A stretch of 64,000 nucleotides of DNA from contig NZ_VBSN01000049.1 of the NCBI RefSeq assembly GCF_006149045.1, positions 62,001 through 126,000 of the forward strand, given 5' to 3'. Shown piece by piece: positions 582-16,278 of this stretch. The first letter of the stretch is position 1, and each line of letters begins with the position of its first letter. The notes below the pieces were generated by a model that was not told where the DNA came from, did no database searches, and saw nothing but the letters and a program-made list of their open reading frames with translations. This DNA is from Dyadobacter flavalbus (GTDB lineage: Bacteria; Bacteroidota; Bacteroidia; Cytophagales; Spirosomataceae). The position numbers were made by a program, and so were the translations under genes.

Positions 582-2126
582 ATGCATTCAAACAACGTCT
601 TTGCCAGACACGCATTCCTTCTGATTTGCCTGTTTCCTTCATTATTACAAGCCCAAAGCGTCCAAAAAGACCGTCCGAATGTTATTTTTATTTATGCGGA
701 TGATCTGGGTTACGGAGATTTGAGTGCATACGGCGCAACCAAAATCAGCACGCCCAACGTAGACCGGCTGGCGCGCGAAGGAATGCTTTTTACCAACGCA
801 CATACGACGTCGGGAACCTGTACACCGTCCCGATATGCGTTGATGACTGGCCAGTATCCGTGGCGGAAACCGGGCACAAACATCCTTCCCGGCGACGCGG
901 CATTAATCGTCCCGACAGAAAATGCGACTTTGCCTTCAGTTTTCCAAAAAGCAGGCTACAAAACAGGCGCAGTCGGCAAATGGCATCTGGGATTGGGTGA
1001 AAACGGCAAGAAGATCAACTGGAACCAGCCCATAGCAAAAGGCCCGGATGCTGTCGGGTTTGATTATTCTTTTATATTTCCGGCTACCGGCGACAGGGTT
1101 CCAACTGTATTTATTGAAAATCAGGAAGTTGTCGGCTTAGAAGCTTCCGATCCGATTGAAGTGAATTACCAGCAGAAAATAGGCACTGAACCCACCGGAA
1201 AGGAAAACCCCGAACTGCTGAAACTGCATGCTTCTCCGGATCACGGCCATAACAACACGATCGTGAACGGCATCGGAAGGATCGGATTTATGACCGGCGG
1301 GAAAAAAGCGCGCTGGACCGATGAAGAAATCGCGCATGTTTTTGCGGATCGTGCAGAAAATTTTATTGAACAACACAGCAAGCAGCCTTTTTTCCTGTAT
1401 TTCTCGCTTAATGACATTCACGTGCCGCGCATGCCGAGTACGCAGTTTAAAGGTAAAAGCGGCCTCGGATTACGCGGCGACGCCATTTTGCAGCTGGACT
1501 GGACTGTCGGCAGAATCCTGAAAAAACTGGAAGCACTGGGCATTGCCAAAAACACGCTGATCCTTTTTTCAAGTGACAACGGGCCTGTTCTGGACGACGG
1601 CTATGACGACGGCGCCGTAACGCAACTGAACGGACATAATCCGCGCGGGCCGCTACGGGGCGGAAAAAGCAGTGCTTTTGAAGCGGGCACAAGGGTTCCT
1701 TTTCTTGTAAGATGGCCGGGCGTTGTCAAGCTGGGTACCAGATCGGACGCGCTGGTTTGCCAGATGGATCTTATTGCGTCGTTTGCTTCCTTTTTCAATC
1801 AGAAACTGTCGCAGGAAGATGCGCCGGACAGCCAGGATTTGTTTGCCGCTTTTACCGGAAAGTCTGCCAATGGCCGTGAAATACTTGTGGAACAAGGCGG
1901 CGGTTTTTCGCTGGTAAAAGGTTCCTGGAAATACATTGAACCATCCGAAGGGCCGAAAGTCCAGAAACTCACCGGAACCGAAACGGGCAGAGATTCGCTG
2001 CCGCAACTGTATGATCTGAAAAACGATATCGGTGAAAAAACTAACCTGGCCAAGACGCATCCCGAAATTGTAAAAGAGCTGGCCGCTGCATTGAAAAAGA
2101 TCAGGGAAGACGGCAGAAGTCGATGA
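582..2126 (+). CDS. Exported type I (S1) sulfatase, arylsulfatase A-like
   Basis: A 514-residue protein with an N-terminal signal peptide (about residues 1-25, ending LLQAQS). The sulfatase signature is clear: metal-binding DD at 40-41 in YADDLGYGDLSAYG, the formylglycine motif CTPSR at Cys80 followed by YALMTGQYPW, the GKWHLG lysine/histidine loop near 135, and the second metal site SSDNGP in the middle of the protein. After conversion of Cys80 to formylglycine it would hydrolyse sulfate esters in the periplasm or outside the cell. It is the only sulfatase left of the main cluster on the forward strand and converges on the thioredoxin-like gene. Substrate cannot be read from sequence. No sulfatase-maturing enzyme is encoded in the window. 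Confidence 0.93.
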   Translation: MHSNNVFARHAFLLICLFPSLLQAQSVQKDRPNVIFIYADDLGYGDLSAYGATKISTPNVDRLAREGMLFTNAHTTSGTCTPSRYALMTGQYPWRKPGTNILPGDAALIVPTENATLPSVFQKAGYKTGAVGKWHLGLGENGKKINWNQPIAKGPDAVGFDYSFIFPATGDRVPTVFIENQEVVGLEASDPIEVNYQQKIGTEPTGKENPELLKLHASPDHGHNNTIVNGIGRIGFMTGGKKARWTDEEIAHVFADRAENFIEQHSKQPFFLYFSLNDIHVPRMPSTQFKGKSGLGLRGDAILQLDWTVGRILKKLEALGIAKNTLILFSSDNGPVLDDGYDDGAVTQLNGHNPRGPLRGGKSSAFEAGTRVPFLVRWPGVVKLGTRSDALVCQMDLIASFASFFNQKLSQEDAPDSQDLFAAFTGKSANGREILVEQGGGFSLVKGSWKYIEPSEGPKVQKLTGTETGRDSLPQLYDLKNDIGEKTNLAKTHPEIVKELAAALKKIREDGRSR

Positions 2127-2191: not shown

Positions 2192-2914
2192 TTACAATGC
2201 CTGTTCTTTCAGGATCTTCTCAATTTCTGCTTTGCTGGCACCGCCTTTTTTCTCCCAGATGGCCTGATTGTTCCGGTAAAGGATCAGCGTCGGAAGGCCC
2301 ACTACGCCCAGTTCTTTCACCAGCGATTTGTTCTCGTATGCTTCGATTTTGATGACTTTTACATTTGCCGCCTGTTCCGTTTTAATCGAATCAATCGTTG
2401 GGTCCAGACGCTTGCAGCCCGGGCAGTAACGCGATCCGAAATCGACCAGAACCAGTTTGTCGCTTTTTAAGGTGGCCGTGTATTCATCCAGCGAAAGCCC
2501 TTTTCCTACGGTGGAAATAACCGGCCGGCCCAGACCGATCCATTTGCTGAGGCCGCCGGGAATTTCAGTAACGTCTTTAAAACCTGCTTTTCTCAGATCC
2601 TCAGCCAGTATGCCGCTGCGCCCGTTGCCAATGGAATAGATAAAAACCGGCTTGTCTTTATTCAGTCCGGCACTTTTCTTTTCAAAATCCGCCTGATCGG
2701 CAATGTTGAAACTGACGGCACCTTCAAGATGATTCTGTACATACTCTTCCGGCAGGCGTGCATCCAAAATTTGTGCATCCTTGCCGGCCGCTTTCAGCTT
2801 GGCTTCAAATGCTTCAAAGGACAGCAATTCTCTTTTTGGTGCTTTTTGTGCAAATCCGGTTGTACTCAGAAACAAGGCAAAAAACAGTACGGATAACAAG
2901 GTCAGATTTTTCAT
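2192..2914 (-). CDS. Exported rhodanese-like / thioredoxin-like fusion protein
   Basis: A 240-residue protein with a signal peptide (1-22, ending TTGFAQ). Residues about 30-130 form a rhodanese-like domain (LDARLPEEYVQNHLEGAV, then the active-site loop SIGNGRS). In active rhodaneses the first loop residue is the sulfur-carrying cysteine; here it is Ser94, so sulfurtransferase activity is unlikely. Residues about 140-240 form a thioredoxin fold with a CPGC redox motif at 164-167 (SRYCPGCKRLDP) and the cis-Pro loop VVGLPTLILY. It probably acts as a periplasmic thiol oxidoreductase. It lies between sulfatase genes and ends toward a convergent forward sulfatase; a functional link with sulfatases is only positional. 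Confidence 0.85.
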   Translation of the reverse strand: MKNLTLLSVLFFALFLSTTGFAQKAPKRELLSFEAFEAKLKAAGKDAQILDARLPEEYVQNHLEGAVSFNIADQADFEKKSAGLNKDKPVFIYSIGNGRSGILAEDLRKAGFKDVTEIPGGLSKWIGLGRPVISTVGKGLSLDEYTATLKSDKLVLVDFGSRYCPGCKRLDPTIDSIKTEQAANVKVIKIEAYENKSLVKELGVVGLPTLILYRNNQAIWEKKGGASKAEIEKILKEQAL

Positions 2915-2989: not shown

Positions 2990-4636
2990 TCAAAGACCCA
3001 GCGCCGCCTGCCGGTTGGGACGCTGGACAGGCGCTCCGATCGGAGTTGCAGGTTTGATCTTTTCATAATCCACAACGCCTGTCTTTTCAGCCCAGCGGAA
3101 ATAATCGGCTGACAATTCGTTTACAATATCCGTCCTGCCTGCAGCCAGGTTGCTCGTTTCACCCCTGTCGTTTTCCAGATCGTACAATTCCCACGCATAA
3201 GAAGGATAACTGGACACGATTTTCCATTTTCCTTTTCTCACTGCCCTGTTTCCCGCACGTTCCCAGAATAACGGCTCGGCCCGTTCCACCTGCTCCGTTT
3301 TGCCCGTAAGTACCGGCACAAGGCTTTTTCCCGGAAGCGGGTTCGTGTTCACGCCGGCATTTGTTGCAGGATAGGCAGCTCTCGCCAGCTCATAAAACGT
3401 AGGTGCAAGATCGATCAGATGTCCCGTGCCTTTCACAATGCTGTTTGCTTTGATCTGTTTCGGAAACCATGCGATAAATGGTGCACTGATGCCGCCTTCA
3501 TGCATGTTGTTTTTATAGCTGGAATGCGGCGTATTGGAAACATATGCCCACGGCTGATCCTGATACACATACGAACCGGCTGTTCCGGCAGGACCAGAAT
3601 TGCGCTGCGGCTTGCGTGGCGAAGCACCCGAATAGCCTCCCTGCGCACCATTGTCAGAAATAAAGACGATCAATGTATTCTGGTCTTTTTGCAGGGCTTT
3701 CAGTTTATCACGCAGCTTTCCGATGTTCTGATCCACGCGGTCGACCATAGCAGCATAGATTTCCATTTTGGTTTGCCAAAGCTGTTTTTCGTCATAAGGC
3801 ACATTTTCCCACGGCACAACTTCGGAATCCCTGCCGGCGACCGACTGTTTCGGATCGGCAATGCCGAGTTCGATTTGCCGCCTGATGCGTTCTTTTCGCA
3901 GCGAGTCCCAGCCGATGTTGTAGCGGCCTTTGTATTTGGCAATATCGGCTTCATGCGCCTGCAACGGCCAGTGCGGTGCGTTGAATGCAAGGTACAGAAA
4001 GAAAGGCTTTGAAGTTTTGCTTTGCTCGTCCAGGAAAGTAATGGCATGATCCGCAATTTCGTCCGTCAGGTATTTGTCAGGCGGCAAATGGATGCGTTTG
4101 TTGTTCTCGACAAGTTCAACCGGAGGTGCCTGGCCGTATTTCCCGATATCAAAATAATTGCTGGCTCCGTTGATAAAACCGTAAAACCGGTCAAATCCCC
4201 GCTGGTTTGGCCAGGCCAGACTGTCATTTCCGACGTGCCATTTTCCGCTCAGAAGCGTACTGTAACCCGCATTCCGCAAAACCTCCCCGAAAGTAAGCGA
4301 CTCTTTATTCAGATATCCCTGATATGCAGGCAGGCCGAGGTTTACATTGAAATAACCCACTCCGGCCTTGTGCGGATACTGGCCGGTAATCAGCGAGGCA
4401 CGCGTTGGCGCACAAATGGAATTGTTGTAAAATTCACGGAAACGGATGCCCTCAGCCGCCAGCTGATCCAGATTCGGCGTTTTGATCTCGGAACCGTAAG
4501 CGCCGATATCCGAGTAACCCAGATCGTCCACCATAATCAGGATGATATTCGGCCGGGAATCATTTGCCTGTTTTTTCTGTGCATGAGCCTCAGAAAAACC
4601 CATTAAAGCAAGGAAAGCAGATACATATATTTTCAT
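2990..4636 (-). CDS. Exported type I (S1) sulfatase, arylsulfatase A-like
   Basis: A 548-residue protein with a signal peptide (1-20, ending SEAHAQ). Metal ligands DD at 37-38 (MVDDLGYSDIGAYG), formylglycine motif CAPTR at Cys75 (Thr in place of the usual Ser, a common variant), GKWHVG loop, and the second metal site SDNGAQGG. The C-terminal part has the usual substrate-side elements (ERAGNRAVRKGKWKI, ELYDLENDRGE). It resembles the next reverse-strand sulfatase (5056-6630) in architecture and in many segments, suggesting an old duplication. It is preceded by a 255-base leader and by one copy of the cluster's promoter/inverted-repeat element at 4891-4916, so it is probably its own transcription unit. 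Confidence 0.93.
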   Translation of the reverse strand: MKIYVSAFLALMGFSEAHAQKKQANDSRPNIILIMVDDLGYSDIGAYGSEIKTPNLDQLAAEGIRFREFYNNSICAPTRASLITGQYPHKAGVGYFNVNLGLPAYQGYLNKESLTFGEVLRNAGYSTLLSGKWHVGNDSLAWPNQRGFDRFYGFINGASNYFDIGKYGQAPPVELVENNKRIHLPPDKYLTDEIADHAITFLDEQSKTSKPFFLYLAFNAPHWPLQAHEADIAKYKGRYNIGWDSLRKERIRRQIELGIADPKQSVAGRDSEVVPWENVPYDEKQLWQTKMEIYAAMVDRVDQNIGKLRDKLKALQKDQNTLIVFISDNGAQGGYSGASPRKPQRNSGPAGTAGSYVYQDQPWAYVSNTPHSSYKNNMHEGGISAPFIAWFPKQIKANSIVKGTGHLIDLAPTFYELARAAYPATNAGVNTNPLPGKSLVPVLTGKTEQVERAEPLFWERAGNRAVRKGKWKIVSSYPSYAWELYDLENDRGETSNLAAGRTDIVNELSADYFRWAEKTGVVDYEKIKPATPIGAPVQRPNRQAALGL

Positions 4637-5055
4637 AGGAAGATTAAGAAAGTTAAAGCCGTAAACAGTCCGGAAGACTGCATGTAGAATGCAGCTGAAA
4701 ACAGGAAATATGCTGAACGCGGAGCGGCAAAAAGTGCCTTACCGGATCAACAACAGCTATTTTGAGCGAATGGAATAATTGCAGAAGAAGCCACCATAAA
4801 ATCAGCTGAAGTTATCTTTTCAGAATTGGAATTCATAACCGGAAAAATTTAAAATACCTGAGCATAATCCGCCGGTGGCTGACAGATTACTCTATTAAAT
4901 TGATAGACAAAGTAAAGACATAGTCGTCATATAAAAAAGGGAATACCGATAATTTTTAAGGCTTTGTTTTATGAATACTTTCTCTCCGTTGACGCTGAGG
5001 TTTTCTTACTTGCTGGAACTTCTCTTTTCAGTTAAAAAAAAGTCATGAAAGCGCC
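4637..5055. other. Intergenic region with promoter element and long leader
   Basis: A 419-base gap. The only structure recognised is the promoter/inverted-repeat element at 4891-4916, which reads leftward. The stretch 4637-4890 would be a long untranslated leader of the sulfatase gene; no hairpin with a T tract and no credible small gene were seen in it. Confidence 0.5.
4891..4916 (-). promoter_or_regulatory. Promoter -7 box plus 17-bp inverted repeat, copy 1
   Basis: Read on the reverse strand: TTTACTTTG (4916-4908), which resembles the Bacteroidota -7 element, runs directly into TCTATCAATTTAATAGA (4907-4891). The 17-mer is an inverted repeat with 7 of 8 matching half-site positions. Two sister copies lie at 12686-12711 and 13121-13146. 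The position just after the -7 box fits an operator where a bound repressor would block the start of transcription. The regulator is not identified. Confidence 0.7.
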
Positions 5056-6630
5056 TTACTTGATTGAATCCCAATCCGCCACGCCTACTTTCTGCGCCCA
5101 CATAAGAAATTCCTTTTCCAGTTCTTTTACACGTTCCGGATGCTTTTTTGCAAGGTCCTGCGTTTCGGTCCGGTCGGTTTCAAGGTTGTACAATTCCCAT
5201 GGCTGATGAATTTCCGAAACCAGCTTCCATTTTCCTTTCCGGACGGCGCGACTGCCTTCATGTTCCCAGAATAAAGTTCTTTCAGCGGATTGGCCCGGGT
5301 TCCTGAATGTTTCCAGCAGACTTTTTCCTTCATTCGGAATCAGCGTTTTTCCATGAAAATTCAACGGATAAGTCACTTTTGCAAGGTCCAGGAAAGTAGG
5401 CAGAATATCAATCAAATGGCTCGTCTGATCGCTGTATGTTCCGCCTTTGATCAATTTGGGAAACCATGCGATAAACGGCGAAGCAATTCCGCCTTCATGC
5501 GTGTTCTTTTTGAAAAGGCGAAAGGGCGTGTTGCTTACATTTCCCCATTCCGGATAATAGCTGTCGATGGAAGCAACCGAGCCCGGCGTTCCGTTTTTCT
5601 GCGTCACATAATCCCAATCTTTCACCGTATCCGCACTGCCGCCATTGTCCGAAACAAAAAGGATGAGCGTGTTTTTATCCTTTTTCAATGCTTTCAGTCT
5701 GGCAAGCACTTCGCCGATTCCGCGGTCCATCCGGTCGATCATGGCTGCATATATCGCCATCCGTAAATCCCAGCTTTCCTTTTCGGCAGCTGAAAGTGAT
5801 TCCCATTGGTCTGCCGGTGAATAGGGTTCGGACAGTTTCCAGTCATTTCTGATAACACCGAGCTTTTTCTGTTTTTCAAAACGCTGCTTCCTGATTTCCT
5901 TCCAGCCTTTCAGGTACTTTCCTTTATATCTCGCAATATCCTCGGGCAAAGCCTGGATCGGCCAGTGCGGCGCGGTATAAGCCAGATACAAAAAGAACGG
6001 ATCGGAACTGGTTTTCAGCTCATCGAGCGACTTGATGGCAAAATCCGTGATCGCCTGCGTAAGATAAACCGAAGTATCCTGCCGCTGGATTTCTGTTCCG
6101 TTCAGCATGAAAGTTACCTTCCGGCCGTCATTGTAAATCGGCTCCGAGTTGAAATAACTGCTGCCGTTGTTCTGCATGGTAAAAGATTGGTCAAAACCCC
6201 GGTTATTCGCAAATGCCGACGGCACAAGCCCGACGTGCCATTTCCCCGATACAATCGTCCGGTACCCTTTTGTTTTCAGAAGCTGTGCAATCGTGACGCT
6301 GTTTTCGCTCAGGAAACCCTGATATGCCGGCAGGCCTTTGTCCTGCACCATATCGCCGATCCCGGCCTGATGCGGATACAATCCGGTCAGTAAGGCAGCG
6401 CGTGACGGACAGCATCGGCCGCTGTTATAGAACGACGTCAGCCTCAATCCTTCTTTTGCAAGCCGGTCCAGATTGGGCGTACTGATCTCCGAACCAAAAC
6501 AGCCCAGATCGGAAAAGCCCAGATCATCGGCAAGGATGAGGATGATGTTGGGGCTTTCGTCAGAACTTTGTGCATGAATCTGTCCTGAAAGCAGGAACAG
6601 AAACAATGCGTAAAAAGCAGCTTTTCTCAT
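5056..6630 (-). CDS. Exported type I (S1) sulfatase, arylsulfatase A-like
   Basis: A 524-residue protein with a signal peptide (1-21, LLSGQIHAQ). DD metal ligands at 35-36, formylglycine motif CCPSR at Cys73, GKWHVG loop, and second metal site SDNGGS. Residues near the C terminus (EHEGSRAVRKGKWKL, ELYNLETDRTE) follow the family pattern. The start ATG overlaps the stop of the upstream sulfatase in an ATGA at 6627-6630, so the two are translationally coupled. It is the last gene of the six-gene reverse operon. It is closest within the window to the sulfatase at 2990-4636. Confidence 0.93.
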   Translation of the reverse strand: MRKAAFYALFLFLLSGQIHAQSSDESPNIILILADDLGFSDLGCFGSEISTPNLDRLAKEGLRLTSFYNSGRCCPSRAALLTGLYPHQAGIGDMVQDKGLPAYQGFLSENSVTIAQLLKTKGYRTIVSGKWHVGLVPSAFANNRGFDQSFTMQNNGSSYFNSEPIYNDGRKVTFMLNGTEIQRQDTSVYLTQAITDFAIKSLDELKTSSDPFFLYLAYTAPHWPIQALPEDIARYKGKYLKGWKEIRKQRFEKQKKLGVIRNDWKLSEPYSPADQWESLSAAEKESWDLRMAIYAAMIDRMDRGIGEVLARLKALKKDKNTLILFVSDNGGSADTVKDWDYVTQKNGTPGSVASIDSYYPEWGNVSNTPFRLFKKNTHEGGIASPFIAWFPKLIKGGTYSDQTSHLIDILPTFLDLAKVTYPLNFHGKTLIPNEGKSLLETFRNPGQSAERTLFWEHEGSRAVRKGKWKLVSEIHQPWELYNLETDRTETQDLAKKHPERVKELEKEFLMWAQKVGVADWDSIK

Positions 6631-8018
6631 TGTCCGGCCTTTTTTGCCCTTGCGGCACGTTTTGTAATGTGACTGTTGTCGGCAGGCATGCGCTGCACGA
6701 GTGCAGTCGGTGTTTCGCCTATGTTCTTTTCATACGCTTTCCATGCAGCAAGCAGTTCTTTTATTTTTTCAGGATTGGTTTTTACGAGATTGTTCTTTTC
6801 GCCTGCATCCGTTCTGAGGTTAAAAAGAAGCGTGTCCGTTGCCGGAACCAGTACAACATCGTTTTGCCTGATATCGGCCTGCGGCAAACGCAGCTTCCAG
6901 TCGCCTTTTCGGAATGCTTCGATGATGCCGTTGGAATAATATGCAAACTCCGTTCCTTTCCGCTTTCCCGTCCCGAACAAAACCGGGCTGATATCCTCTC
7001 CGTCCAGCTGTTTCTGTGTTTGTGTTTTCTGGCTGCCCGTCAGGCTGATGATCGTCGGATATAAATCAAGCTGTGTCGCCAGATCGTCGTAAACGCTTCC
7101 CGCTTTGATCTTTCCCGGCCAGTACGCCAAAGTCGGGACGCGCTGCCCGCCTTCGAACGTAGTGCCTTTTCCCTGACGCAACGGACCCGCCGAACCGCCT
7201 TCCACATCAAAGATCAGCCAAGGGCCGTTGTCGCTGGTGAAAATGACCAGCGTATTTTCTTCCAGTCCGTTTGCCTTGATGGATTTTACAATTTCACCCA
7301 CGCTCCAGTCCAGTTCCTCAATGACATCGCCATACAGTCCTCTTTTCGATTTTCCCTCGAATTCCGGTGAAGCGTACAGCGGCACGTGCGGCATATTATG
7401 CGTTACATACAGGAAAAAGGGCTGATTTTTATTCTGTGCAATAAACCGCGTTGCTTCTTTCGTGTACGTTCTGGTTATGTATTTCTGATTGACTTTCATG
7501 CTGTCCACCTCGTTTCCGCGCAGATAAACCACGCCCTGCATATCGTTGCTGTACGGGATTCCGTAATATTCGTCGAAGCCATTTTGTAATGGTAAAAACT
7601 GCCTGTGATGCCCCAGATGCCATTTTCCGAAAATGGCCGTTTTATAGCCATTGCCTTTCAATGCTTCCGCAATCGTTACTTCGTCGGACGGGATTCCGGT
7701 AAAGCTTTCAGGAAAAAACACGTGTTCAATGCCCATTCTTTTGGGGTAACGCCCGGTAATCAGCGCAGCCCGCGTGGGGCTGCATACCGGAGACGCTGAG
7801 TAAAAGGAAGTAAGTTTCAGACCTTTGGCTGCGAGGTTGTCAATATTCGGCGTGCGGATATCCGTTGCGCCGAATGCGCCTATATCGCCGTAGCCAAGGT
7901 CGTCGGCCAGGATTACGACAATATTCGGCTTGCTCTTTTGCTGGCCGGATTGGGCAAAGATTATACCTGCCGTCAGCACCAGCAGGAATGTATTAAAGAT
8001 AGTAAATATTCTTTTCAT
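6627..8018 (-). CDS. Exported type I (S1) sulfatase
   Basis: A 463-residue protein with a signal peptide (1-23, AGIIFAQS). DD metal ligands at 39-40 (LADDLGYGDIGAFG), formylglycine motif CSPTR at Cys79, FGKWHLG loop, and second metal site TSDNGPW. The C-terminal segment reads AFRKGDWKLRLPQ and LFNLRTDAGEKNN as in typical arylsulfatases. It lies 12 bases downstream of the enolase-superfamily gene and overlaps the next sulfatase by four bases, so it is internal to the reverse operon. Desulfation of sugar sulfates outside the cytoplasm is expected; the substrate is unknown. Confidence 0.93.
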   Translation of the reverse strand: MKRIFTIFNTFLLVLTAGIIFAQSGQQKSKPNIVVILADDLGYGDIGAFGATDIRTPNIDNLAAKGLKLTSFYSASPVCSPTRAALITGRYPKRMGIEHVFFPESFTGIPSDEVTIAEALKGNGYKTAIFGKWHLGHHRQFLPLQNGFDEYYGIPYSNDMQGVVYLRGNEVDSMKVNQKYITRTYTKEATRFIAQNKNQPFFLYVTHNMPHVPLYASPEFEGKSKRGLYGDVIEELDWSVGEIVKSIKANGLEENTLVIFTSDNGPWLIFDVEGGSAGPLRQGKGTTFEGGQRVPTLAYWPGKIKAGSVYDDLATQLDLYPTIISLTGSQKTQTQKQLDGEDISPVLFGTGKRKGTEFAYYSNGIIEAFRKGDWKLRLPQADIRQNDVVLVPATDTLLFNLRTDAGEKNNLVKTNPEKIKELLAAWKAYEKNIGETPTALVQRMPADNSHITKRAARAKKAGQ

Positions 8019-8030
8019 GTTTTCAGTTGG

Positions 8031-9278
8031 TTAAACAGCGTATTTTCTGATCAGCTCGTAATTCAGTTCATGGCCGAGGCCGGGAGTTTCGGGTACATGA
8101 ATGTATCCGTCCTTGAAATTCTCAACCGGGTTCAGCAGTTCTGCGCGCCACGGCACTTCACCGTATGCATATTCCAGGATGGAAAAATTGGGAATGGCAG
8201 CACAAACCTGCACACTCGCTGCCGTCGAAACCGGCCCGCTCGGATTGTGGGGCGCCACGGTGATGTTACCCGCTGTTTCGGCCTGCGCAGCAATAAAACG
8301 CAGTTCCTGTATGCCGCCGCAATGCTTTACATCCGGCATAATCATGTCCAGCGCTCTTGTATTGATCAGTTTTTCAAAGCCTTGCCGTCCAAAAATAGAT
8401 TCTCCGCCTGCCGAAGCCTGCATGATTGCATCGGTGATTTCTTTGGTGTCGCCCGGATACTTTTCCGGATCAACGGCCTCTTCAAACCAGTAAAGATTAG
8501 ATGGTTGCAGACGTTTTGCCGTGGCAATCGCAAGTTTTTTATCCAAATGGCTATGCACATCAATCAGCAGGTCCGTTTCCGTCCCGATCGTTTTCCTTAC
8601 GGCCTCAATGCAGTTCACAGCATAATCCAGGTCGGATGCAATCTGTTTTTCATCAGCGGTTTGTAATGGCTTCATTTCGTCGAAAGGTGCCAGCTTCACG
8701 GCTTTAAATCCGTTTTTCATGGCACTTTCCGCATTGGACTGAAATGACGAAACGAGCCTTCTGCCATTTGCATCGCGTTCGTTAGTGGCGCGATTTATAT
8801 TGGCATATACTTTCAGTTTTTCCCTCAGTTTTCCGCCCAGTAGATTATAAACCGGAACGCCGAGCGCTTTGCCGTTCAGGTCCCACAATGCCTGCTCGAT
8901 TGCGCTGAATGCGGTAATTGCCACTTTTCCTTTTTGCGCCGCTTTCTGCAGACCACGCTGACGGAATTGTTCTACGGCAAACGGAGATTCATTTTTTACC
9001 AGTTCAAAAAACGCTTTCAGTTCCGTTTTCAACTGATTTTTCCCGTCCGTAACCGATGCCGAAAATCCATGCGATGCTTCGCCGAGGCCGCTGATTCCTT
9101 TATTGGTTTTCAGTTCGATAAAAAACCAGTTACCGCGTGCATTTACCTTGATCTCGTGCACGTCCAGCGCAGTTACGACCAGTTTTTCATCCGATTTGCT
9201 TCTGTTTTTAGCAAAAACATCAGTCCATGCCAATGCAGGCAGCAGGCTTGCAGCGTTCAGGAAATTTCTTCTGTTCAT
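8031..9278 (-). CDS. Tat-exported enolase-superfamily (mandelate racemase-like) acid-sugar dehydratase
   Basis: From ATG 9278 the protein begins MNRRNFLNAASLLPALAW, a twin-arginine signal, so this start is preferred; ATG 9296 would add six residues. The rest is an enolase-superfamily fold: N-terminal capping domain, then a barrel with Lys in KAVKLAPF, Asp in LLIDVHSH, Glu in WFEEAVDP, Glu in GGESIFG, Asp in MPDVKHCGG and His in APHNPSGPVS. This is the ligand and base set of the mandelate racemase subgroup, whose members often dehydrate aldonic or uronic acids. Export by Tat is unusual, as such dehydratases are normally cytoplasmic. It is embedded between sulfatases, 12 and about 36 bases from its neighbours, which suggests a role on the same glycan. 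Confidence 0.85.
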   Translation of the reverse strand: MNRRNFLNAASLLPALAWTDVFAKNRSKSDEKLVVTALDVHEIKVNARGNWFFIELKTNKGISGLGEASHGFSASVTDGKNQLKTELKAFFELVKNESPFAVEQFRQRGLQKAAQKGKVAITAFSAIEQALWDLNGKALGVPVYNLLGGKLREKLKVYANINRATNERDANGRRLVSSFQSNAESAMKNGFKAVKLAPFDEMKPLQTADEKQIASDLDYAVNCIEAVRKTIGTETDLLIDVHSHLDKKLAIATAKRLQPSNLYWFEEAVDPEKYPGDTKEITDAIMQASAGGESIFGRQGFEKLINTRALDMIMPDVKHCGGIQELRFIAAQAETAGNITVAPHNPSGPVSTAASVQVCAAIPNFSILEYAYGEVPWRAELLNPVENFKDGYIHVPETPGLGHELNYELIRKYAV

Positions 9279-9314
9279 CGTTTTGTTTTCGATCATCAGG
9301 ATAATTTGAAAAGA

Positions 9315-10748
9315 TCAGGGGGCAACGGCTTTCGGTTCAATGGGCAAGGGCAGATAATCGCGGTTCAGGATCATCCATTCCTGCAGAAGTGTTTTCAGCC
9401 GGTGTTCCGTTTCACGGATTTCAGGCTTTCCGGCCAGATTGTCGGTTTCATCCGGATCTTTTTCTTCATCATAAATCTCGAACATCGGACGGCGCTCTGC
9501 AAAAAGCAGTCTGTCGTATTTTTCTTCCAGTTTGCCTTCGGTGTGTTTCTGTTTCAGGTCAAGCCAGAAAGGCTGTGCGGCAAAATCGACCGGATGATAA
9601 GGAATTTGCCAGATGGCGTTGTAAATCAGTTTGTATTTCTTGTTAAAAACCGTCCTGCCCAGATCAAAATCGGCTGAATTATAAGGAAGGTTCTGTCCAT
9701 GCGCCCCGCGAACGGCATAAATGTAGTCGTGGCCTTCAAATGCAGCGCCCTGAAAGGAAGGCACTAGGCTTTTTCCTGTTATCTCCTTTGGAATGGCAAT
9801 GCCCGCCATATGCAGTAAAGTAGGCGCAATATCGATACCCGAAACCAGCGCATCGCTTGTTTGTCCGGCTTTGATAAGCTCCGGATGGCGCATGATCAGC
9901 GGCACATTCAGGCCCAGATTATAGAGCGTTCCTTTTCCTCTCAGCAATGCACCGCCGTTATCCCCAATAAAGACGACCAGTGTATTTTCAGTCAGCCCGC
10001 GCTTCTGCAGATCATCCAGCACACGCCCGACATCTCCGTCCAGCCGCTGGATTTCACCGAGATAGGAAGCAAAATCTTCCCGAAGCTGCCTGGTGTCCGG
10101 CCAGTGTTTCGGCAAGGAAATTTCGTTCGGGTTGGGCTCAAATTCCTTTGCATTGAAAACCCGGTGCGGATCGCTGTAACCGACCTGCACAAAAAACGGC
10201 TTTCCTTTCGGCGCCTGATCCAGAAATTCCGAGTATTGCTGATAAATGCTGTCGCGGTTTCCTGTTGTTTTCAGGTAATCAACCCGGTTTTTAAAGGTTT
10301 CCAGATCGTATTTTTCAAGAATATCCACCGTCTCGGGTACACGGCGGTTGCCGTCCAGATGAAAGTTGCGGCCCAGAATTCCCGTATGATACCCGGCTTT
10401 CCGGAGCAGCTCCGGATATGCCATAACGGATTTATCAAGCGGTGCCGAAAAGCGTGTCATCTGAATGTCCAGTGTATTGCGGCCGGTCATGATCGCTGCA
10501 CGGGACAGCACGCATTGCGGCGCGGTCGTGTAGGCACGGCGGTACAGAATGCCTTCTTTTGCCAGCTTGTCGATATTCGGCGTTTTGATTTCGGGGTAAC
10601 CATAACTGCCCAGAAAAGGCGCACTATGGTCGTCGGACACAATCAGGACAATGTTCGGAGGCTGCGGCTTTTTCTTCTGCGCCTGAACGGCCGGCGCAAA
10701 AACGGCCAGCAGCGATAAAGCCGTAACGGTACTTTTAAAGATGTTCAT
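9315..10748 (-). CDS. Exported type I (S1) sulfatase with atypical CVLSR active-site motif
   Basis: A 477-residue protein with a signal peptide (1-24, FAPAVQAQ). DD metal ligands at 39-40 (VSDDHSAPFLGSYG) and second metal site IGDNGGALLRGKG. The formylglycine region reads APQCVLSRAAIMTGRN, with Cys79 followed by Val-Leu-Ser-Arg. The usual motif is C-x-P-S/T-R, so the proline (codon CCG) is replaced by leucine (CTG), one base away. The GRNFHLDG segment replaces the more common GKWHLG. It may still be matured or may be inactive. It lies third in the reverse operon, between another sulfatase and the enolase-superfamily gene. Confidence 0.9.
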   Translation of the reverse strand: MNIFKSTVTALSLLAVFAPAVQAQKKKPQPPNIVLIVSDDHSAPFLGSYGYPEIKTPNIDKLAKEGILYRRAYTTAPQCVLSRAAIMTGRNTLDIQMTRFSAPLDKSVMAYPELLRKAGYHTGILGRNFHLDGNRRVPETVDILEKYDLETFKNRVDYLKTTGNRDSIYQQYSEFLDQAPKGKPFFVQVGYSDPHRVFNAKEFEPNPNEISLPKHWPDTRQLREDFASYLGEIQRLDGDVGRVLDDLQKRGLTENTLVVFIGDNGGALLRGKGTLYNLGLNVPLIMRHPELIKAGQTSDALVSGIDIAPTLLHMAGIAIPKEITGKSLVPSFQGAAFEGHDYIYAVRGAHGQNLPYNSADFDLGRTVFNKKYKLIYNAIWQIPYHPVDFAAQPFWLDLKQKHTEGKLEEKYDRLLFAERRPMFEIYDEEKDPDETDNLAGKPEIRETEHRLKTLLQEWMILNRDYLPLPIEPKAVAP

Positions 10749-10787
10749 TTTTGTAGAATGGTAAATTGGACACTGGATTTGAAGTCT

Positions 10788-12215
10788 TTATTTCGACTCT
10801 TGTTTTTTGGCATACACTTTGTCAATGGCTGCGCCTTCATCACCTTGCTGCTTCATCCATGCTTCCAGTTCTTTTCTGAATTTCGTGATCATTTGCCTGT
10901 ATGCAGGATCACCGGCAAGATTGTCCAGCTCAAAAGGATCTTTTTGTATATCGTAAAATTCCTCGGGCGGACGGTTGACAAAGCGGTTTGTCAGCTTTCC
11001 GGAAGTTGAATCCGTTTCGGCTTTTTCAGTCCAGGAAAACCATACCGTATTGCGGTCCGGCTTTTCACGGTTCATCATAAAGCGATTATAATACGCAGCG
11101 CCCGGCGACAGGTTAAGGATCAGTTTGTAGCGGTTGTCACGAATGCTCCTGATCGGGTACGGATCGCCTTCGGGAATGTTGTTATGGATGCCGAAAGCAT
11201 AGTTTCTGGCCACTTTGCTTTTTCCCGAGAGTACAGGCAAAAAGCTTTTTCCATCCAGCCCTGGCATTGCTTTGCCGCCTGCCATTTCGATCAGCGTCGG
11301 TGTAATGTCTTCATACTGAACCATAACGCTTGTTTCCGAAGAGGCTTTTACTTTTCCCGGCCATTTCACGATCATCGAACTTTTTTGTCCCGAATCCCAA
11401 AGGTTCCATTTCGCACCGGGAAACTGGGCGCCTTGTTCGCCCAGAAAAATAACAATTGTGTTCTTGTCCTGACCCGTTTCGCGCAGCAGACCGGTTATTT
11501 CACCCACCTGGTTATCCAGCCGCCGGACTTCCGCAAGGTACTTGACGTACTGACTTCTTGTAACGGGCGTATCCACCCAGTCGGCGGGCAATTGCAGCTT
11601 GTTCTTGTCAAGCTCGGTCGTATCGCCAGATGTCCACGGCGTATGCGGGTTAATGCTCATAACAAAAAGGCAATAAGGTTTTTCACTAGCCGTCATGTAC
11701 TTTTTCACATCGTCCAGCCGGTAATCGTCCGTCGGCGATACGCAGTTTGGCTCGAACCCTTCGATGATGTCAAACGGAAAAACGCTTTTGGGCTTTGTAA
11801 CATGATCTTTTCCCGTCAAACCGACGCGGTAACCCAGATCAGCCAGATAATGGCCGACGCTTTTCAGATGGTCATAAACGGGTTTGTGGTTTTGAAAAGA
11901 ACCGTGGCGCACCGGATAAAGCCCGGTGAAAAGCGACGCACGCGTCGGTACGCACATGGCTTCCGAAGCATACATATTGCTGAATTTCAAACCTTGTGCT
12001 GCAAGATTATCAATGTGCGTCGTTTTGAGATTTTGTCCGCCATAGCAGCTCAGTTGCCTGCTGTCGAGGTCATCGGCCATGATGATGACCATGTTTGGCT
12101 TTGCGGGATTTTGCTGTATTTCAGCCACCGGCTTTTGAGAAATACGGAACGCAAGCAAAGCAAAAGCCGGCAAAAGAACGGGTAACGACTTTCTGGCAAT
12201 CGGAAGAAAATGCAT
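10788..12215 (-). CDS. Exported type I (S1) sulfatase, N-sulfatase/heparan-sulfatase-like branch
   Basis: A 475-residue protein with a hydrophobic N terminus (about 10-30, ALLAFRISQ). DD metal ligands at 48-49 (MADDLDSRQLSCYGG), formylglycine motif CVPTR at Cys88, and GKDHVTKP in the region where other members have GKWHLG. The usual second metal site (D-N/H-G) reads GEQGAQFPGAKW; Glu-Gln in place of Asp-Asn is, from memory, characteristic of one branch of the family rather than a loss. The end is rich in Lys/Glu. It lies only 7 bases after the unknown 129-aa gene and 39 before the next sulfatase gene in the operon. Confidence 0.9.
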   Translation of the reverse strand: MHFLPIARKSLPVLLPAFALLAFRISQKPVAEIQQNPAKPNMVIIMADDLDSRQLSCYGGQNLKTTHIDNLAAQGLKFSNMYASEAMCVPTRASLFTGLYPVRHGSFQNHKPVYDHLKSVGHYLADLGYRVGLTGKDHVTKPKSVFPFDIIEGFEPNCVSPTDDYRLDDVKKYMTASEKPYCLFVMSINPHTPWTSGDTTELDKNKLQLPADWVDTPVTRSQYVKYLAEVRRLDNQVGEITGLLRETGQDKNTIVIFLGEQGAQFPGAKWNLWDSGQKSSMIVKWPGKVKASSETSVMVQYEDITPTLIEMAGGKAMPGLDGKSFLPVLSGKSKVARNYAFGIHNNIPEGDPYPIRSIRDNRYKLILNLSPGAAYYNRFMMNREKPDRNTVWFSWTEKAETDSTSGKLTNRFVNRPPEEFYDIQKDPFELDNLAGDPAYRQMITKFRKELEAWMKQQGDEGAAIDKVYAKKQESK

Positions 12216-12222
12216 ATCGGAT

Positions 12223-12612
12223 TTAAGCTACTTGTGATATTCGCCGGCTCAATGCGGTTGTACGCATTCCTTTCAGGTATTTTGTCTTCTCTTCAATCGG
12301 GATTTTGAAAGATACATCTACATCCGCTCCTACCTGCACTTTGAATGCTGAAATGGCTTCCCTGAGTTGCTTGCGGGAAATTCCGCTGTATTCGAGCTGT
12401 AATAACCGGGACCTTCCGGAATCGGATTTTTTAAGTTTCCAGTACTTCGGATGATTTTCGCCGATCGGCTGCCGGAAATCCGTATCGTTTTTTTCTTTGA
12501 TCAGAAACTCAAAATCCAGCGCTACTTCATTTCGGCTCCTGGTAAACCTTCCCCGGACAATAATTTTGGCGACTCTGCCCCCGCCCACGTAAAATGCTTT
12601 TTCTAAAACCAT
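12223..12612 (-). CDS. Unknown 129-residue protein, first gene of the sulfatase operon
   Basis: A 129-residue basic protein beginning MVLEKAFYVGGGRVAKII. It is not recognised as any family. It has no signal peptide or membrane segment, an alternating beta-rich middle (VALDFEFLIKE, SRLLQLEY, DVDVSFKIP) and a basic C terminus. It is the first gene after the promoter/inverted-repeat element at 12686-12711, with a leader of roughly 80 bases, and is followed 7 bases later by a sulfatase gene, so it is expressed with the sulfatases. Its cytoplasmic nature contrasts with the exported products downstream. Confidence 0.7.
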   Translation of the reverse strand: MVLEKAFYVGGGRVAKIIVRGRFTRSRNEVALDFEFLIKEKNDTDFRQPIGENHPKYWKLKKSDSGRSRLLQLEYSGISRKQLREAISAFKVQVGADVDVSFKIPIEEKTKYLKGMRTTALSRRISQVA

Positions 12613-12685
12613 AGGACTCCTGCTAATGGAATATCATGTTTAAAACGGCATTCCGGCAAATGGGTGGTTCAATGCGGAACATTAA

Positions 12686-12711
12686 TCTATTAAACTTATA
12701 GACAAAATAAA
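12686..12711 (-). promoter_or_regulatory. Promoter -7 box plus 17-bp inverted repeat, copy 2
   Basis: On the reverse strand TTTATTTTG (12711-12703) is followed directly by TCTATAAGTTTAATAGA (12702-12686). Half sites match at 6 of 8 positions. It drives the six-gene reverse operon starting at 12612. Spacing between the -7-like box and the inverted repeat is identical to the other two copies. Confidence 0.7.
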
Positions 12712-12771
12712 TTTAAAGAGTTTGAAATTGCAAAAGGAAAGTGGGAATGCAGTGGAATTATGTTTTTGGGG

Positions 12772-12973
12772 ATTGTCATGAATTGTTATTTATAGTCATG
12801 AATTGTCATGAATTGTCATGAATTGTCATGGGTAGTTATGTATTGTCATTTTTTGTTGGGATTGTTATTTGTGGTGGAGGATTGTCATGAATGTCATGAA
12901 TTGTATTTATAGTCATGAATTGTCATGGGTAGTTATGTATTGTCGTTTTTTGTTGGGATTGTTATTTGTGGTG
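12772..12973. repeat. TGTCATGAAT-rich repeat block with two 62-base copies
   Basis: The block is built of the word AATTGTCATG in tandem (12801-12830) and larger units. Bases 12815-12876 and 12912-12973 are 62-base direct repeats, offset 97, differing at one base (GTCATT versus GTCGTT). The composition (T and G rich on one strand) differs from the flanking sequence. No reading frame runs through it. A degenerate relative lies at 34233-34330. Confidence 0.85.
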
Positions 12974-13096
12974 AAGGGCTTTTTCTGATGGATGGGTTTT
13001 GATTTTGGGTTATTTTCAATAGCTGCAAACAATAAGCTGAATATCAGTTTTTTATATCAAAACATATTGAAATCCGGATAAACAGTTATTTACAGA

Positions 13097-13146
13097 TTTG
13101 GATTGTTTGCGTGAAATCTCTTTACTTTGTCTATATAATTAATAGA
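13097..13146 (+). promoter_or_regulatory. SusC operon promoter with 17-bp inverted repeat, copy 3
   Basis: A TTTG at 13097-13100 is spaced about 21 bases from the -7-like box TTTACTTTG (13121-13129), consistent with Bacteroidota promoters. Directly after it lies TCTATATAATTAATAGA (13130-13146), an inverted repeat with 6 of 8 matching half-site positions. The element shares its layout with copies at 4891 and 12686, and drives the SusC-SusD-sulfatase operon with a leader of about 65 bases. Confidence 0.7.
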
Positions 13147-13200: not shown

Positions 13201-16200
13201 ATGTTGAAAATAACTTTACGACGATTTGACGGAACTGGTTTTCGATGGTCCTTACTTCTATCTGTAATCGTTTCCCTTTATGGCTACGGACAATCCGTAA
13301 CTGTTACCGGTCTGGTAAAATCCCAAAATGAACAGGCAGCGATTCCCGGGATTAACATTCTGGTAAAAAACACGTTAACCGGAACTGCAACGGATGCGCA
13401 GGGAAAGTTTACGATCAATGTATCGCCGGACGCTGTGCTTGTCTTTTCAGGAATCGGTTTTCTTTCGCAGGAAGTGCCGGTAAATAACCGGAGCACTATT
13501 GATGTGACTTTGCAGGAAGACACCAAACAGCTTAACGAACTGGTTGTCATTGGCTACGGCGTGCAGAAAAAAAGTGACCTGACCGGCTCCGTATCTTCCA
13601 TCTCGGAAGCGCAGTTCAAGAAAACGCCGGTTGCTTCGCTGGATAACGGCTTGCGCGGACGGGCTGCGGGCGTGCAGGTTACAAGTACTTCCAATCAGCC
13701 CGGCGGCGCTACGAGCATCCGCATACGCGGCAGCAATTCGGTCAATACCGGCAGCGAACCGTTGTATGTGATCGACGGGTTTCCGGTTTTTAATGACAAC
13801 AGCGCCACAGCGGGCGGCGCCACGGTCGGCCCGAAGCTGAATGCACTTTCGCTCATCAACCCGAATGATATCGTATCGATTGAAGTTCTGAAAGACGCTT
13901 CTGCTGCCGCCATTTACGGTGCACGCGGTGCAAACGGCGTGGTGCTGATCACCACTAAAAAAGGTCAGGAAGGTAAAATGAAAATCGACCTGAATGCATA
14001 TTACGGCGTCCAGAAAGTTTCCAAAACGCTGCCGCTCCTGAATGCAACTGAATACGCGCAACTGGTGAATGATGCCAACGGAAAAGTTATTTACACGCCG
14101 GAGCAAATCGCTTCTTTCGGCGAAGGCACCAACTGGCAGGATGAAATTTTCAGGTCTGCGCCGATGCAGAATTACCAAGTTACGGCTTCGGGCGGCGATG
14201 CAAAAACAAAGTATTCGCTATCGCTCAACTATTTTGACCAGGCCGGGATCATCATCAACTCCAATTTTAAGCGTTACTCGGCCCGCTTCAATTTTGAAAA
14301 GCAGGCTAATACCAAATTGACGCTCGGCTCCAATCTGAGTATCGCCAATACCAATGCCAATCAGGCGCTGAGCAGCACGGGCGGTGGCGAAGGAACGCAG
14401 GGCGTGATCGTTTCTGCTCTGGATTTTAACCCGATCCTGAAAGTACGGAATCCGGACGGTACGTATGTCTTGGAAAATGACCGCGGCATACCCATCGGAA
14501 ATCCGGTTGCAACGGCGCTGGAACTCACCAACAAATCGGTCAGCACGCGTTTTCTTGGAAATGTTTTTGCCAACTACAAAATTCTGGACGGTCTGGAATT
14601 CAGGACGAGCGTCGGTGCGGATATTACCAATACGGGAGAAAAATACTATGCGCCGCGCACGATTCTTGCGGGTGCAAGTGCGCAGGGCATCGGTCGTGCC
14701 TCGACGGCAAGCGGCACTTCCTGGCTGAACGAAAACACGCTTACGTACAACAAGTCATTCGACAAACATGCCCTTACGGTTCTTGCCGGTTTTTCGGCGC
14801 AGAAGTACACGCGCAATCTGCTGACTTCCGCTGCGTCGGGTTTTGTCAATGATTTGCTGGGCGCAGACAATCTGGGTTCGGGTGCGATCATCAGCTCACC
14901 CGTAACCAACGTGCTGGACTGGAGCCTGATTTCCTACATCGGCCGCATCAATTACGGTTTTAATGACAAGTATTTGCTGACCTTAACCGGCCGCGCAGAC
15001 GGTTCTTCCAAATTCGGGAACAACAACAAATACGGATTTTTCCCTTCCGGTTCCGTTGCATGGAAATTGTCCGAGGAGGAATTTATCAAAAACATCAGCG
15101 CCATTGACGAACTGAAACTGCGTCTGAGCTATGGAAAAATCGGTAATCAGGAAATTAACAGTTATCAGTCACTCGCCGGCCTGGCGGGTGCGAGTTACAT
15201 CATCGGCGACAAGGTTATGAAAGGGTTTCTGCCGGGCAACATTTCCAATCCGAACCTGAAATGGGAAACGACGGCACAAACGGACCTGGGTCTGGACCTT
15301 GGCCTTTTCCGGAACCGTCTGAACCTGACTTTTGATGCCTATTACAAAAAAACAACCGACATGCTCCTGAACATCAATGTTCCGTGGTCAACCGGATTTT
15401 CGACGGCACTGCAGAATATCGGAAGCATTGAAAACAAAGGAATCGAGTTAGGCATTCAGGCCAATGTGCTGACCAAAGACCTGAAATGGAACATCAACTT
15501 CAACATTGCGGCCAATAAAAACAAAGTGCTGGACCTTGGCCCAGTTTCGCAGATCCTGACGGGTGAAATCAACGGTTATCTGAAAATCAATGATCCCGTA
15601 GTGATTGTGCCGGGCAGGCCGCTCAACTCGTTTTACGGTTATGTAAGCGACGGCATTTTCCAGAATGGTGAAAACATTGCAGCCAGTGCACAGAAAACAG
15701 CCGTTCCCGGCGACAGGAAATACAAAGACCTGAACGGCGACGGCGTGCTCGATGCAAAAGACCGCACGTTTATCGGCAATGCACAGCCCAAATTCTTCGG
15801 CGGCTTCACCAACGATTTCAGTTACAAAGGTTTTGATCTGAGCGCATCGTTTAATTATGTTTACGGAAATAAAATCCTGAACAGCACGCGTGCAGACCTC
15901 GATTTGCCAACGGGACAAAAGAACAGTTCGGCACGCGTAAAAGACCGCTGGACGCCGACAAACCCGAGTAACACAATCCCGAGAGCGACATTGAACCGCG
16001 CATTTCTGTTCTCCGACGCACAGATTGAAGACGGTTCGTTCCTGAGATTAGGCTCGCTTTCGCTCGGATATAATTTCCCGTCTTCATGGCTGTCAAAAAC
16101 CGGCATAAGCAATGCAAAACTGTATGTTTCAGGTCAAAACCTGTTTATAATCACCCATTATACCGGCTTTGATCCGGAAACAAACCAGTCGGGGCAAAAC

Positions 16201-16278
16201 AACATCCTGCGCGGGATTGATTCTGATTCCTATCCCAATTCAAGATCCTTTCTGGTGGGTGTAAACCTCAGCTTTTAA
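13201..16278 (+). CDS. SusC-like TonB-dependent outer-membrane transporter
   Basis: The frame is open further upstream (GTG at 13111), but that would place coding sequence over the promoter element, so ATG 13201 is chosen: 1025 residues with a signal peptide ending YGYGQS. Domains in order: carboxypeptidase-regulatory-like domain (about 32-105, VTGLVKSQ to TIDVTLQED), a TonB-box-like stretch (ELVVIGYGVQKKSDLTG), plug domain (with IRIRGSNSV and PLYVIDGFPVF), and a beta-barrel to the final aromatic LVGVNLSF. There is no STN domain, so it is a pure transporter rather than a sigma-signalling one. With the following SusD it imports an oligosaccharide, presumably the sulfatase-treated glycan. Confidence 0.95.
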   Translation: MLKITLRRFDGTGFRWSLLLSVIVSLYGYGQSVTVTGLVKSQNEQAAIPGINILVKNTLTGTATDAQGKFTINVSPDAVLVFSGIGFLSQEVPVNNRSTIDVTLQEDTKQLNELVVIGYGVQKKSDLTGSVSSISEAQFKKTPVASLDNGLRGRAAGVQVTSTSNQPGGATSIRIRGSNSVNTGSEPLYVIDGFPVFNDNSATAGGATVGPKLNALSLINPNDIVSIEVLKDASAAAIYGARGANGVVLITTKKGQEGKMKIDLNAYYGVQKVSKTLPLLNATEYAQLVNDANGKVIYTPEQIASFGEGTNWQDEIFRSAPMQNYQVTASGGDAKTKYSLSLNYFDQAGIIINSNFKRYSARFNFEKQANTKLTLGSNLSIANTNANQALSSTGGGEGTQGVIVSALDFNPILKVRNPDGTYVLENDRGIPIGNPVATALELTNKSVSTRFLGNVFANYKILDGLEFRTSVGADITNTGEKYYAPRTILAGASAQGIGRASTASGTSWLNENTLTYNKSFDKHALTVLAGFSAQKYTRNLLTSAASGFVNDLLGADNLGSGAIISSPVTNVLDWSLISYIGRINYGFNDKYLLTLTGRADGSSKFGNNNKYGFFPSGSVAWKLSEEEFIKNISAIDELKLRLSYGKIGNQEINSYQSLAGLAGASYIIGDKVMKGFLPGNISNPNLKWETTAQTDLGLDLGLFRNRLNLTFDAYYKKTTDMLLNINVPWSTGFSTALQNIGSIENKGIELGIQANVLTKDLKWNINFNIAANKNKVLDLGPVSQILTGEINGYLKINDPVVIVPGRPLNSFYGYVSDGIFQNGENIAASAQKTAVPGDRKYKDLNGDGVLDAKDRTFIGNAQPKFFGGFTNDFSYKGFDLSASFNYVYGNKILNSTRADLDLPTGQKNSSARVKDRWTPTNPSNTIPRATLNRAFLFSDAQIEDGSFLRLGSLSLGYNFPSSWLSKTGISNAKLYVSGQNLFIITHYTGFDPETNQSGQNNILRGIDSDSYPNSRSFLVGVNLSF

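Follow-up and report, generated by a model that had tools for sequence, protein, structure and literature searches.

We propose that three 26-base elements in the genome of Dyadobacter flavalbus are operators of a sulfur-limitation regulon under a CymR-like repressor of the Rrf2 family, an assignment that sequence comparison makes quite probable. The elements lie in a stretch of 64,000 nucleotides, here called the window, which is C39:62001-126000 of the 6.48 Mb draft genome; positions given below without a contig label are those of the window. They read TTTACTTTGTCTATCAATTTAATAGA (4891-4916, minus strand), TTTATTTTGTCTATAAGTTTAATAGA (12686-12711, minus strand) and TTTACTTTGTCTATATAATTAATAGA (13121-13146, plus strand), and each combines a -7 box with a palindromic 17-mer:

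4891..4916, minus strand: promoter/operator 1, -7 box TTTACTTTG at 4908-4916, followed without a gap by the palindromic operator TCTATCAATTTAATAGA at 4891-4907
12686..12711, minus strand: promoter/operator 2, -7 box TTTATTTTG at 12703-12711 and operator TCTATAAGTTTAATAGA at 12686-12702
13121..13146, plus strand: promoter/operator 3, -7 box TTTACTTTG at 13121-13129 and operator TCTATATAATTAATAGA at 13130-13146

An earlier note on this stretch had placed the elements at these positions and on these strands and had seen no further copy in the window. All three were found there, and the N4-spaced pattern TTTAYTTTGTCTATNNNNTTAATAGA gives exactly three matches in the window, even with up to three mismatches, and none in 100 dinucleotide shuffles of it. 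The N5 spacing that the note had offered for searches matches nothing, the correct spacing being N4. A weight matrix built from 75 sites, the three window elements included, finds no further place above 7 bits in the window; promoter/operator 1 scores 27.3 with this matrix, which contains its own site. Taken by itself, with three mismatches allowed, the 17-mer occurs 13 times in the window against 13.65 expected and is not rarer than chance. The significance of the elements therefore comes from the joint occurrence of the -7 box and the 17-mer.

The element extends well beyond the window. Searching the genome with TTTGTCTAYYAAWTTARTAGA at up to three mismatches returned 13 rows, compared with one for the reversed pattern used as control; two rows are rereads of the opposite strand, leaving 11 places. 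Eight of them head sulfatase units, one a unit with the sulfatase-activating enzyme FGE (PF03781), one an S-adenosylmethionine (SAM) riboswitch with a cysteine desulfurase, and one a TonB receptor. Outside the window, with several downstream genes named from the protein of a close relative and not from the own protein, the places are:

C50:273751: fatty-acid-hydroxylase-like gene (family named via relative L206), SusC, SusD and sulfatase
C1:777117: SusC-SusD and two sulfatases
C70:38260: two sulfatases
C50:172539: weakly PBP-like protein and sulfatase
C40:8532: small protein and sulfatase, with the palindrome upstream of the -7 box (by eye)
C60:82824: unit with a flavin adenine dinucleotide (FAD) protein and FGE
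C28:550788: SAM riboswitch, redoxin, cysteine desulfurase and SusCD
C1:815822: TonB receptor, the site having 3 mismatches

One cis element thus heads many functionally related units, as an operator of a regulon does. The earlier note had held that matches before sulfatase and SusCD genes would support a regulon and that matches at most housekeeping promoters would refute one; the genome-wide matches are found in front of sulfatase, SusCD and sulfur genes rather than at housekeeping promoters. Its idea of one regulator whose operator coordinates the sulfatase units is supported beyond the window, whereas its description of the regulon as local is not: the sites are genome-wide, occur in every same-genus genome searched and include sulfur-assimilation transporter genes. 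When the -7 box is left out, the 18-base pattern at three mismatches gives 109 matches against 127 for the reversed control, so that mainly rows with 0-2 mismatches were used. Two weak rows inside open reading frames (C30:56636 and C50:243633) were discarded as chance matches.

Eighteen PF00884 matches were found in the genome. Three of these (C50:136787, C60:187038 and C27:16923) lack the sulfatase active-site pattern and, by eye, resemble other members of the superfamily. Among the 15 genuine sulfatases, 12 belong to element-headed units, one of the 12 (window 9315-10748) lacking the active-site pattern used. Two more have a less clear site, namely C40:6942, where the site is displaced, and C39:62675, which lies behind the rrf2 palindrome described below and has no clear promoter.

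A general promoter feature, that is, a -7 box with its start region and no operator function, was considered and rejected; it is almost certainly not the explanation. A TTTG-type -7 box and a TTTG near -33 are ordinary parts of Bacteroidota promoters according to a passage of PMC7366714. However, with three mismatches allowed, the 6.5 Mb contain no more than 11 places with the element, and sulfatase, FGE or SAM-riboswitch units account for 10 of these; at one transporter gene, the second TSUP gene discussed below, the palindrome stands apart from the -7 box. Over the 75 sites the box reads TA-N-TTTG in 58, and the sigma-A form TAnnTTTG was found in just 2, so the box does not conform to the sigma-A consensus. 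The prevailing form is one base shorter than that consensus and, taken with the first T of the operator, fits TAnnTTGY. This is the SM5 motif, located at -12 to -5 in Flavobacterium psychrophilum and most likely under an alternative sigma factor, as stated in a section of PMC9723704. The promoter of the second TSUP gene in the own genome retains TAnnTTTG. The operator would span about -5 to +12 by SM5 spacing and -4 to +13 by sigma-A spacing. An upstream TTTG lies exactly 28 bases before the TTTG of the -7 box in 29/75 sites and 27 to 29 bases before it in 35/75, with at most 4 sites at each other offset; in the window, site 2 has it at 28, site 3 at 29, and site 1 has none.

The element is conserved among relatives. 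All 25 same-genus genomes searched contain it, with 178 matches against 6 in the control at up to two mismatches; these counts take both strands, and some sites are counted twice. Of the 28 genomes with matches, 12 supplied 60 stretches, which we read using home-made models and a simple open-reading-frame finder; they contain 65 distinct sites. The gene run downstream includes a sulfatase at 32 sites and SusC without a sulfatase at 13, and neither at 20. In seven relatives, 33/47 sites have a same-strand sulfatase within 10 kb downstream, where 0.5 would be expected, and 4 have one in the mirror direction. At six loci of relatives (L187, L204, L207, L211, L223 and L232), a sulfatase is the first gene of the unit that holds the FAD protein and FGE; this leading sulfatase is missing from the own genome, from the relative G006 and from L196, where the operator precedes the remaining genes. 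G006 also lacks most of the six-gene unit headed by promoter/operator 2, with the operator kept. Two element-headed SusCD units in relatives (L190:3709-13433 and L219) contain a protein without Pfam match, to which L190 adds a molybdopterin oxidoreductase (PF00174); these units are possibly another organosulfur route.

In Bacteroidota, sulfatases beside SusCD are usually read as serving glycan degradation for carbon. By that logic the window would hold a local locus for sulfated-glycan utilisation which, like classical polysaccharide utilisation loci, responds to a sugar signal through its operators and supplies carbon. As in such loci, SusC, SusD and sulfatase genes share one unit, several sulfatases and an enolase-superfamily enzyme stand together at the locus, and the 13 SusC units without sulfatase by the models used, out of 65 sites, would fit. 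Unlike in such loci, the operator here is common to sulfur-assimilation genes genome-wide. The same palindrome at TSUP transporters, the cys cluster, the FGE unit and SAM-riboswitch units is left unexplained by a glycan signal, and the element heads units with different sulfatases on several contigs. We consider this explanation highly unlikely.

The sulfur-assimilation genes point instead to a regulon for sulfur limitation. The cys cluster comprises a TSUP transporter, MetY-like, CysH, CysD, CysN and sulfite reductase genes, two of them named via PF01507 and the others by eye. Its TSUP gene is preceded by a palindrome TCTAY-N7-STATA at 30/30 loci read, the locus being absent in one of 31 matching genomes. 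The distance of the palindrome to the presumed start is 28 bases, except in one locus with 27, and its scores run from 7.1 to 14.8, the 95% and 99% values of shuffled sequence being 5.6 and 8.7. A second TSUP gene, which adjoins rrf2 in the own genome, has the palindrome at 21/21 loci read (the own and those of 20 relatives), with scores of 9.5 to 25.4; the spacer bases vary and the ends are mostly kept. At this gene a normal TAnnTTTG box is found downstream of the palindrome (in the own genome; in other genomes by eye), and in 3/21 loci the asymmetric form of the palindrome stands in the opposite orientation. In addition, a SAM riboswitch (RF00162) starts at the end of the operator in 8/9 relatives' loci scanned and in the own genome, for example at L031:9788-9900. 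It scores 46 to 50 bits, above the gathering score, and sits before the cysteine desulfurase gene wherever that gene is visible. What sets it apart from the known SAM riboswitch is its place directly after a presumed repressor operator, which suggests two-level control, by repressor and riboswitch, on one leader.

These arrangements also bear on the possibility that the palindrome acts as RNA, forming a hairpin where the mRNA begins. In the sulfatase units most of the palindromic 17-mer would be transcribed, and in the desulfurase unit the 17-mer abuts the SAM riboswitch. At the second TSUP gene, however, the palindrome precedes the -7 box and would stay outside the transcript; it is therefore not a hairpin of that mRNA, and the opposite orientation of the asymmetric form in three loci likewise speaks against such a role. 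The hairpin was rejected as extremely improbable.

The candidate for the protein that binds the operator is encoded nearby. Four Rrf2 matches in the genome exceed the cut-off. One of them is at C39:58812-59264, to the left of the window, at a distance of 2.7 kb from it and of about 7.6 kb from the first element, and its promoter region contains GTCTATCAAATTAGTATA with 0 mismatches. The TSUP gene after it carries the palindrome GTCTATAAAATTTGTAGA, and a third palindrome is found at C39:57571; the counterpart of the latter in G006 precedes an 83-amino-acid gene like the small ACT-domain-like gene of desulfurase units. The closest named relative by the Rrf2 protein, Dyadobacter sediminis (98%), has the same site at its rrf2. 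The earlier note had concluded that the regulator would act from elsewhere. It is indeed outside the window if this candidate is right, but it need not be remote. A paralog at C37:3580-4029 is 84% identical, with the helix-turn-helix and wing nearly the same, and is the counterpart of the copy that is linked to fadB in most Dyadobacter loci; by sequence-based gene names, the C39 copy is beside TSUP and the C37 copy beside fadB. In one relative (L107), the neighbours of rrf2, both named by eye, are a cysteine desulfurase and a probable serine acetyltransferase. A zinc-ribbon protein of 140-158 amino acids recurs near extra rrf2 copies (L012:13517-13939; L072 and L107), and the L012 copy is weakly like an IS1595 transposase (E 7.5e-4).

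The occurrence of Rrf2 and the motif was compared in 38 relatives, 24 of the genus and 14 others of the order, with a single pair of cut-offs (Rrf2 at E<=1e-30, motif at up to two mismatches) and for Rrf2 alone among regulator families. Both were present in 27 genomes and both absent in 11. Outside the genus, the motif was found in 3/3 genomes with Rrf2 and in 0/11 without it (p 0.003). G038, a genome of another family, has a single cluster made up of rrf2, three palindromes, a TonB-receptor-like gene and a TSUP gene. The G037 site stands before a peroxiredoxin, by eye of the same kind as that beside rrf2 in L257, L260 and L277, and rrf2 is on another contig. In a class-wide sample the Rrf2 subfamily (E<=1e-20) occurs in 36/149 genomes, and sulfite reductase, CysH/CysD, MetY or TSUP genes lie within flanks of at most 1.5 kb in 12 of the 29 class-level rrf2 loci read, as a raw count.

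The element, its places, its conservation and its co-occurrence with rrf2 are read directly from the genomes; that Rrf2 binds it is suggested by the palindrome in its own promoter, by the co-occurrence and by the neighbourhood. A different protein might bind this sulfur-regulon operator, with rrf2 merely one of its targets. The site before rrf2 would be no different in that case, and the fadB-linked copy of rrf2 mostly lacks one. The parallel presence and absence of motif and Rrf2 in the 38 genomes, those outside the genus included, argues the other way, as do the physical linkage in G038, the closeness of the Rrf2 subfamily to sulfur assimilation in 12 of 29 class-level loci and its kinship with CymR. 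We regard another binding protein as unlikely, though it has the best chance among the alternatives.

Several observations weigh against the proposed Rrf2 regulon. Outside the genus the reversed control gives four matches (one in G028, two in G029 and one in G031), so the single matches in G037 and G038 carry weight only by virtue of what surrounds them. The palindrome, at up to one mismatch, precedes 11/110 rrf2 genes, with a mean of 2.9 and a maximum of 7 in 20 shuffle rounds, and near-identical rows are among these 11. Among the fadB-linked genes, seven rows carry a variant one base shorter. Self-regulation of rrf2, as predicted from these upstream regions, is not general. Spacings of 5, 8 and 9 upstream of the 110 genes gave 1, 1 and 4 palindromes against 2.5, 3.2 and 2.75 in shuffles, with no clear excess, and spacing 6 gave seven near-identical Dyadobacter rows. 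At the cys cluster, the site of the own genome scores 9.5, barely above the 99% value of shuffled sequence, and two of the 30 loci (8.1 and 7.1) fall below that value. For the genuine sulfatase at C50:209818, the 10 kb that were read contain no site, even with three mismatches allowed. The 20 of 65 relatives' sites at which the models found no sulfatase and no SusC include seven SAM riboswitches (with the desulfurase gene visible in five), two FGE units, three PBP-like genes and sites at stretch ends. Moreover, of 134 sulfatase rows in seven relatives, only 50 have a site with at most two mismatches no more than 10 kb away; looser sites may have escaped the search, or many sulfatases may be under other control. 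Finally, the Rrf2 protein scores 79.7 bits with the CymR profile, under its cut-off of 195 bits. Matches like GTTTCTAATTTAGTAGA upstream of rrf2 in other Cytophagaceae (L116, L118 and L123) reach into the stop codon of the gene before, and we do not count them as operators.

The protein is a clear Rrf2 member, with 118.4 bits against PF02082 (cut-off 30) and 107.3 bits against TIGR00738 (cut-off 73.3). The CymR equivalog NF047409 is its best NCBIfam equivalog, and the IscR profile TIGR02010 gives 62.5 bits, below the cut-off of 207.55. Among solved structures, the order by sequence is T. potens IscR, a Listeria protein and CymR; by fold, using Foldseek with an AlphaFold model (mean predicted local distance difference test score 76.9), CymR comes first (2y75, E 8e-10). 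The model is poor in the cysteine loop and does not allow ligand geometry to be derived. Cysteines 91, 100, 103 and 109, spaced C-x8-C-x2-C-x5-C, are invariant in 110/110 relatives, 82 near and 28 far. This invariance suggests that they may form a sensor, by way of an iron-sulfur (Fe-S) cluster, a metal or a thiol switch. Classical Fe-S Rrf2 members have three cysteines in another spacing. With IscR, NsrR and RirA the protein shares the family and conserved cysteines C-terminal to the winged helix, but it differs in the cysteine spacing and in falling short of the IscR profile.

CymR is the Rrf2-family master repressor of cysteine metabolism in Bacillus subtilis and Staphylococcus aureus, as described in sections of PMC2940859 and PMC9338935, and the B. 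subtilis protein binds no Fe-S cluster according to a section of PMC9338935. The Dyadobacter protein resembles it in family and fold, and the predicted targets are likewise genes of sulfur uptake and assimilation. In contrast to CymR, it has four invariant cysteines, and its predicted targets include SusCD pumps and many sulfatases. CymR senses the cysteine pool together with CysK, as a complex. By analogy, it would work like CymR; we do not class it as CymR because of the profile score and its own set of cysteines.

We propose the following mechanism. A dimeric Rrf2-family repressor would bind the palindrome TCTAY-N7-RTAGA, which in the sulfatase units directly follows the -7 box, from roughly -5 to +13, over the predicted start site. 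The bound dimer would block RNA polymerase there, the position of the operator over the presumed start suggesting repression. When reduced sulfur runs short, the repressor would be released; the list of targets suggests this signal, as for CymR. Sulfatases, SusCD pumps, the sulfatase-activating enzyme, TSUP transporters, the cys cluster and the cysteine desulfurase would then be expressed, and the cell could scavenge sulfate from sulfate esters and assimilate it.

The earlier note had assigned one transcription unit to each element, and its six-gene unit and SusC-SusD-sulfatase unit stand; the element at 4891 heads two genes and not a single sulfatase. In the unit of the 12686 element, four of the six genes are of the sulfatase family. 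The genes are:

2990..4636, minus strand: unit 1, gene 1, S1-type sulfatase of 548 amino acids with the active-site motif CAPTRASLITG
2192..2914, minus strand: unit 1, gene 2, rhodanese-thioredoxin protein of 240 amino acids
12223..12612, minus strand: unit 2, gene 1, protein of 129 amino acids without Pfam match
10788..12215, minus strand: unit 2, S1-type sulfatase, active-site motif present
9315..10748, minus strand: unit 2, sulfatase-family protein (PF00884), active-site pattern used not found
8031..9296, minus strand: unit 2, mandelate-racemase/enolase-superfamily protein
6627..8018, minus strand: unit 2, S1-type sulfatase with active-site motif
5056..6630, minus strand: unit 2, S1-type sulfatase with active-site motif
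13201..16278, plus strand: unit 3, SusC-type TonB-dependent receptor, ATG at 13201
16312..17772, plus strand: unit 3, SusD-type lipoprotein
17847..19382, plus strand: unit 3, S1-type sulfatase with active-site motif
582..2126, plus strand: S1-type sulfatase (PF00884 match C39:62675), third and last of the same-strand genes starting near the rrf2 palindrome at C39:59436-59453

The GTG start at 13111 given for the SusC gene by the open-reading-frame finder lies upstream of promoter 3. Membership of the 582..2126 sulfatase in the regulon is a weak assignment, there being no clear -7 box in its direction. Between the two divergent promoters, 12772-12977 is a degenerate tandem repeat with 10-base ATTGTCATGA units within a 97-base unit (1.9 copies, 93%); the matching intergenic region of G006 is, by eye, shorter and has no tandem repeat. 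In G006 (L252:1505-4439) two operators lie 1 kb apart, with only the 129-amino-acid gene and an 86-amino-acid open reading frame between them.

Searches of the open-access literature turned up no paper on sulfur regulation by an Rrf2 protein in Bacteroidota, none on the control of Dyadobacter sulfatases, and no global sulfur regulator for this phylum. The four-cysteine Rrf2 subfamily is present in about a quarter of the sampled genomes of the class, often beside cys genes. We lean, by a small measure, towards the view that this subfamily is a master sulfur-limitation repressor of Bacteroidota which, in Dyadobacter, has captured SusCD-sulfatase loci for sulfur harvest. It would thus be a candidate global sulfur regulator for the phylum, with a sensor of the four-cysteine type. 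If this is true, part of the sulfatase repertoire of such bacteria would serve sulfur scavenging, and the operator would offer a simple sequence test for which sulfatases do so.

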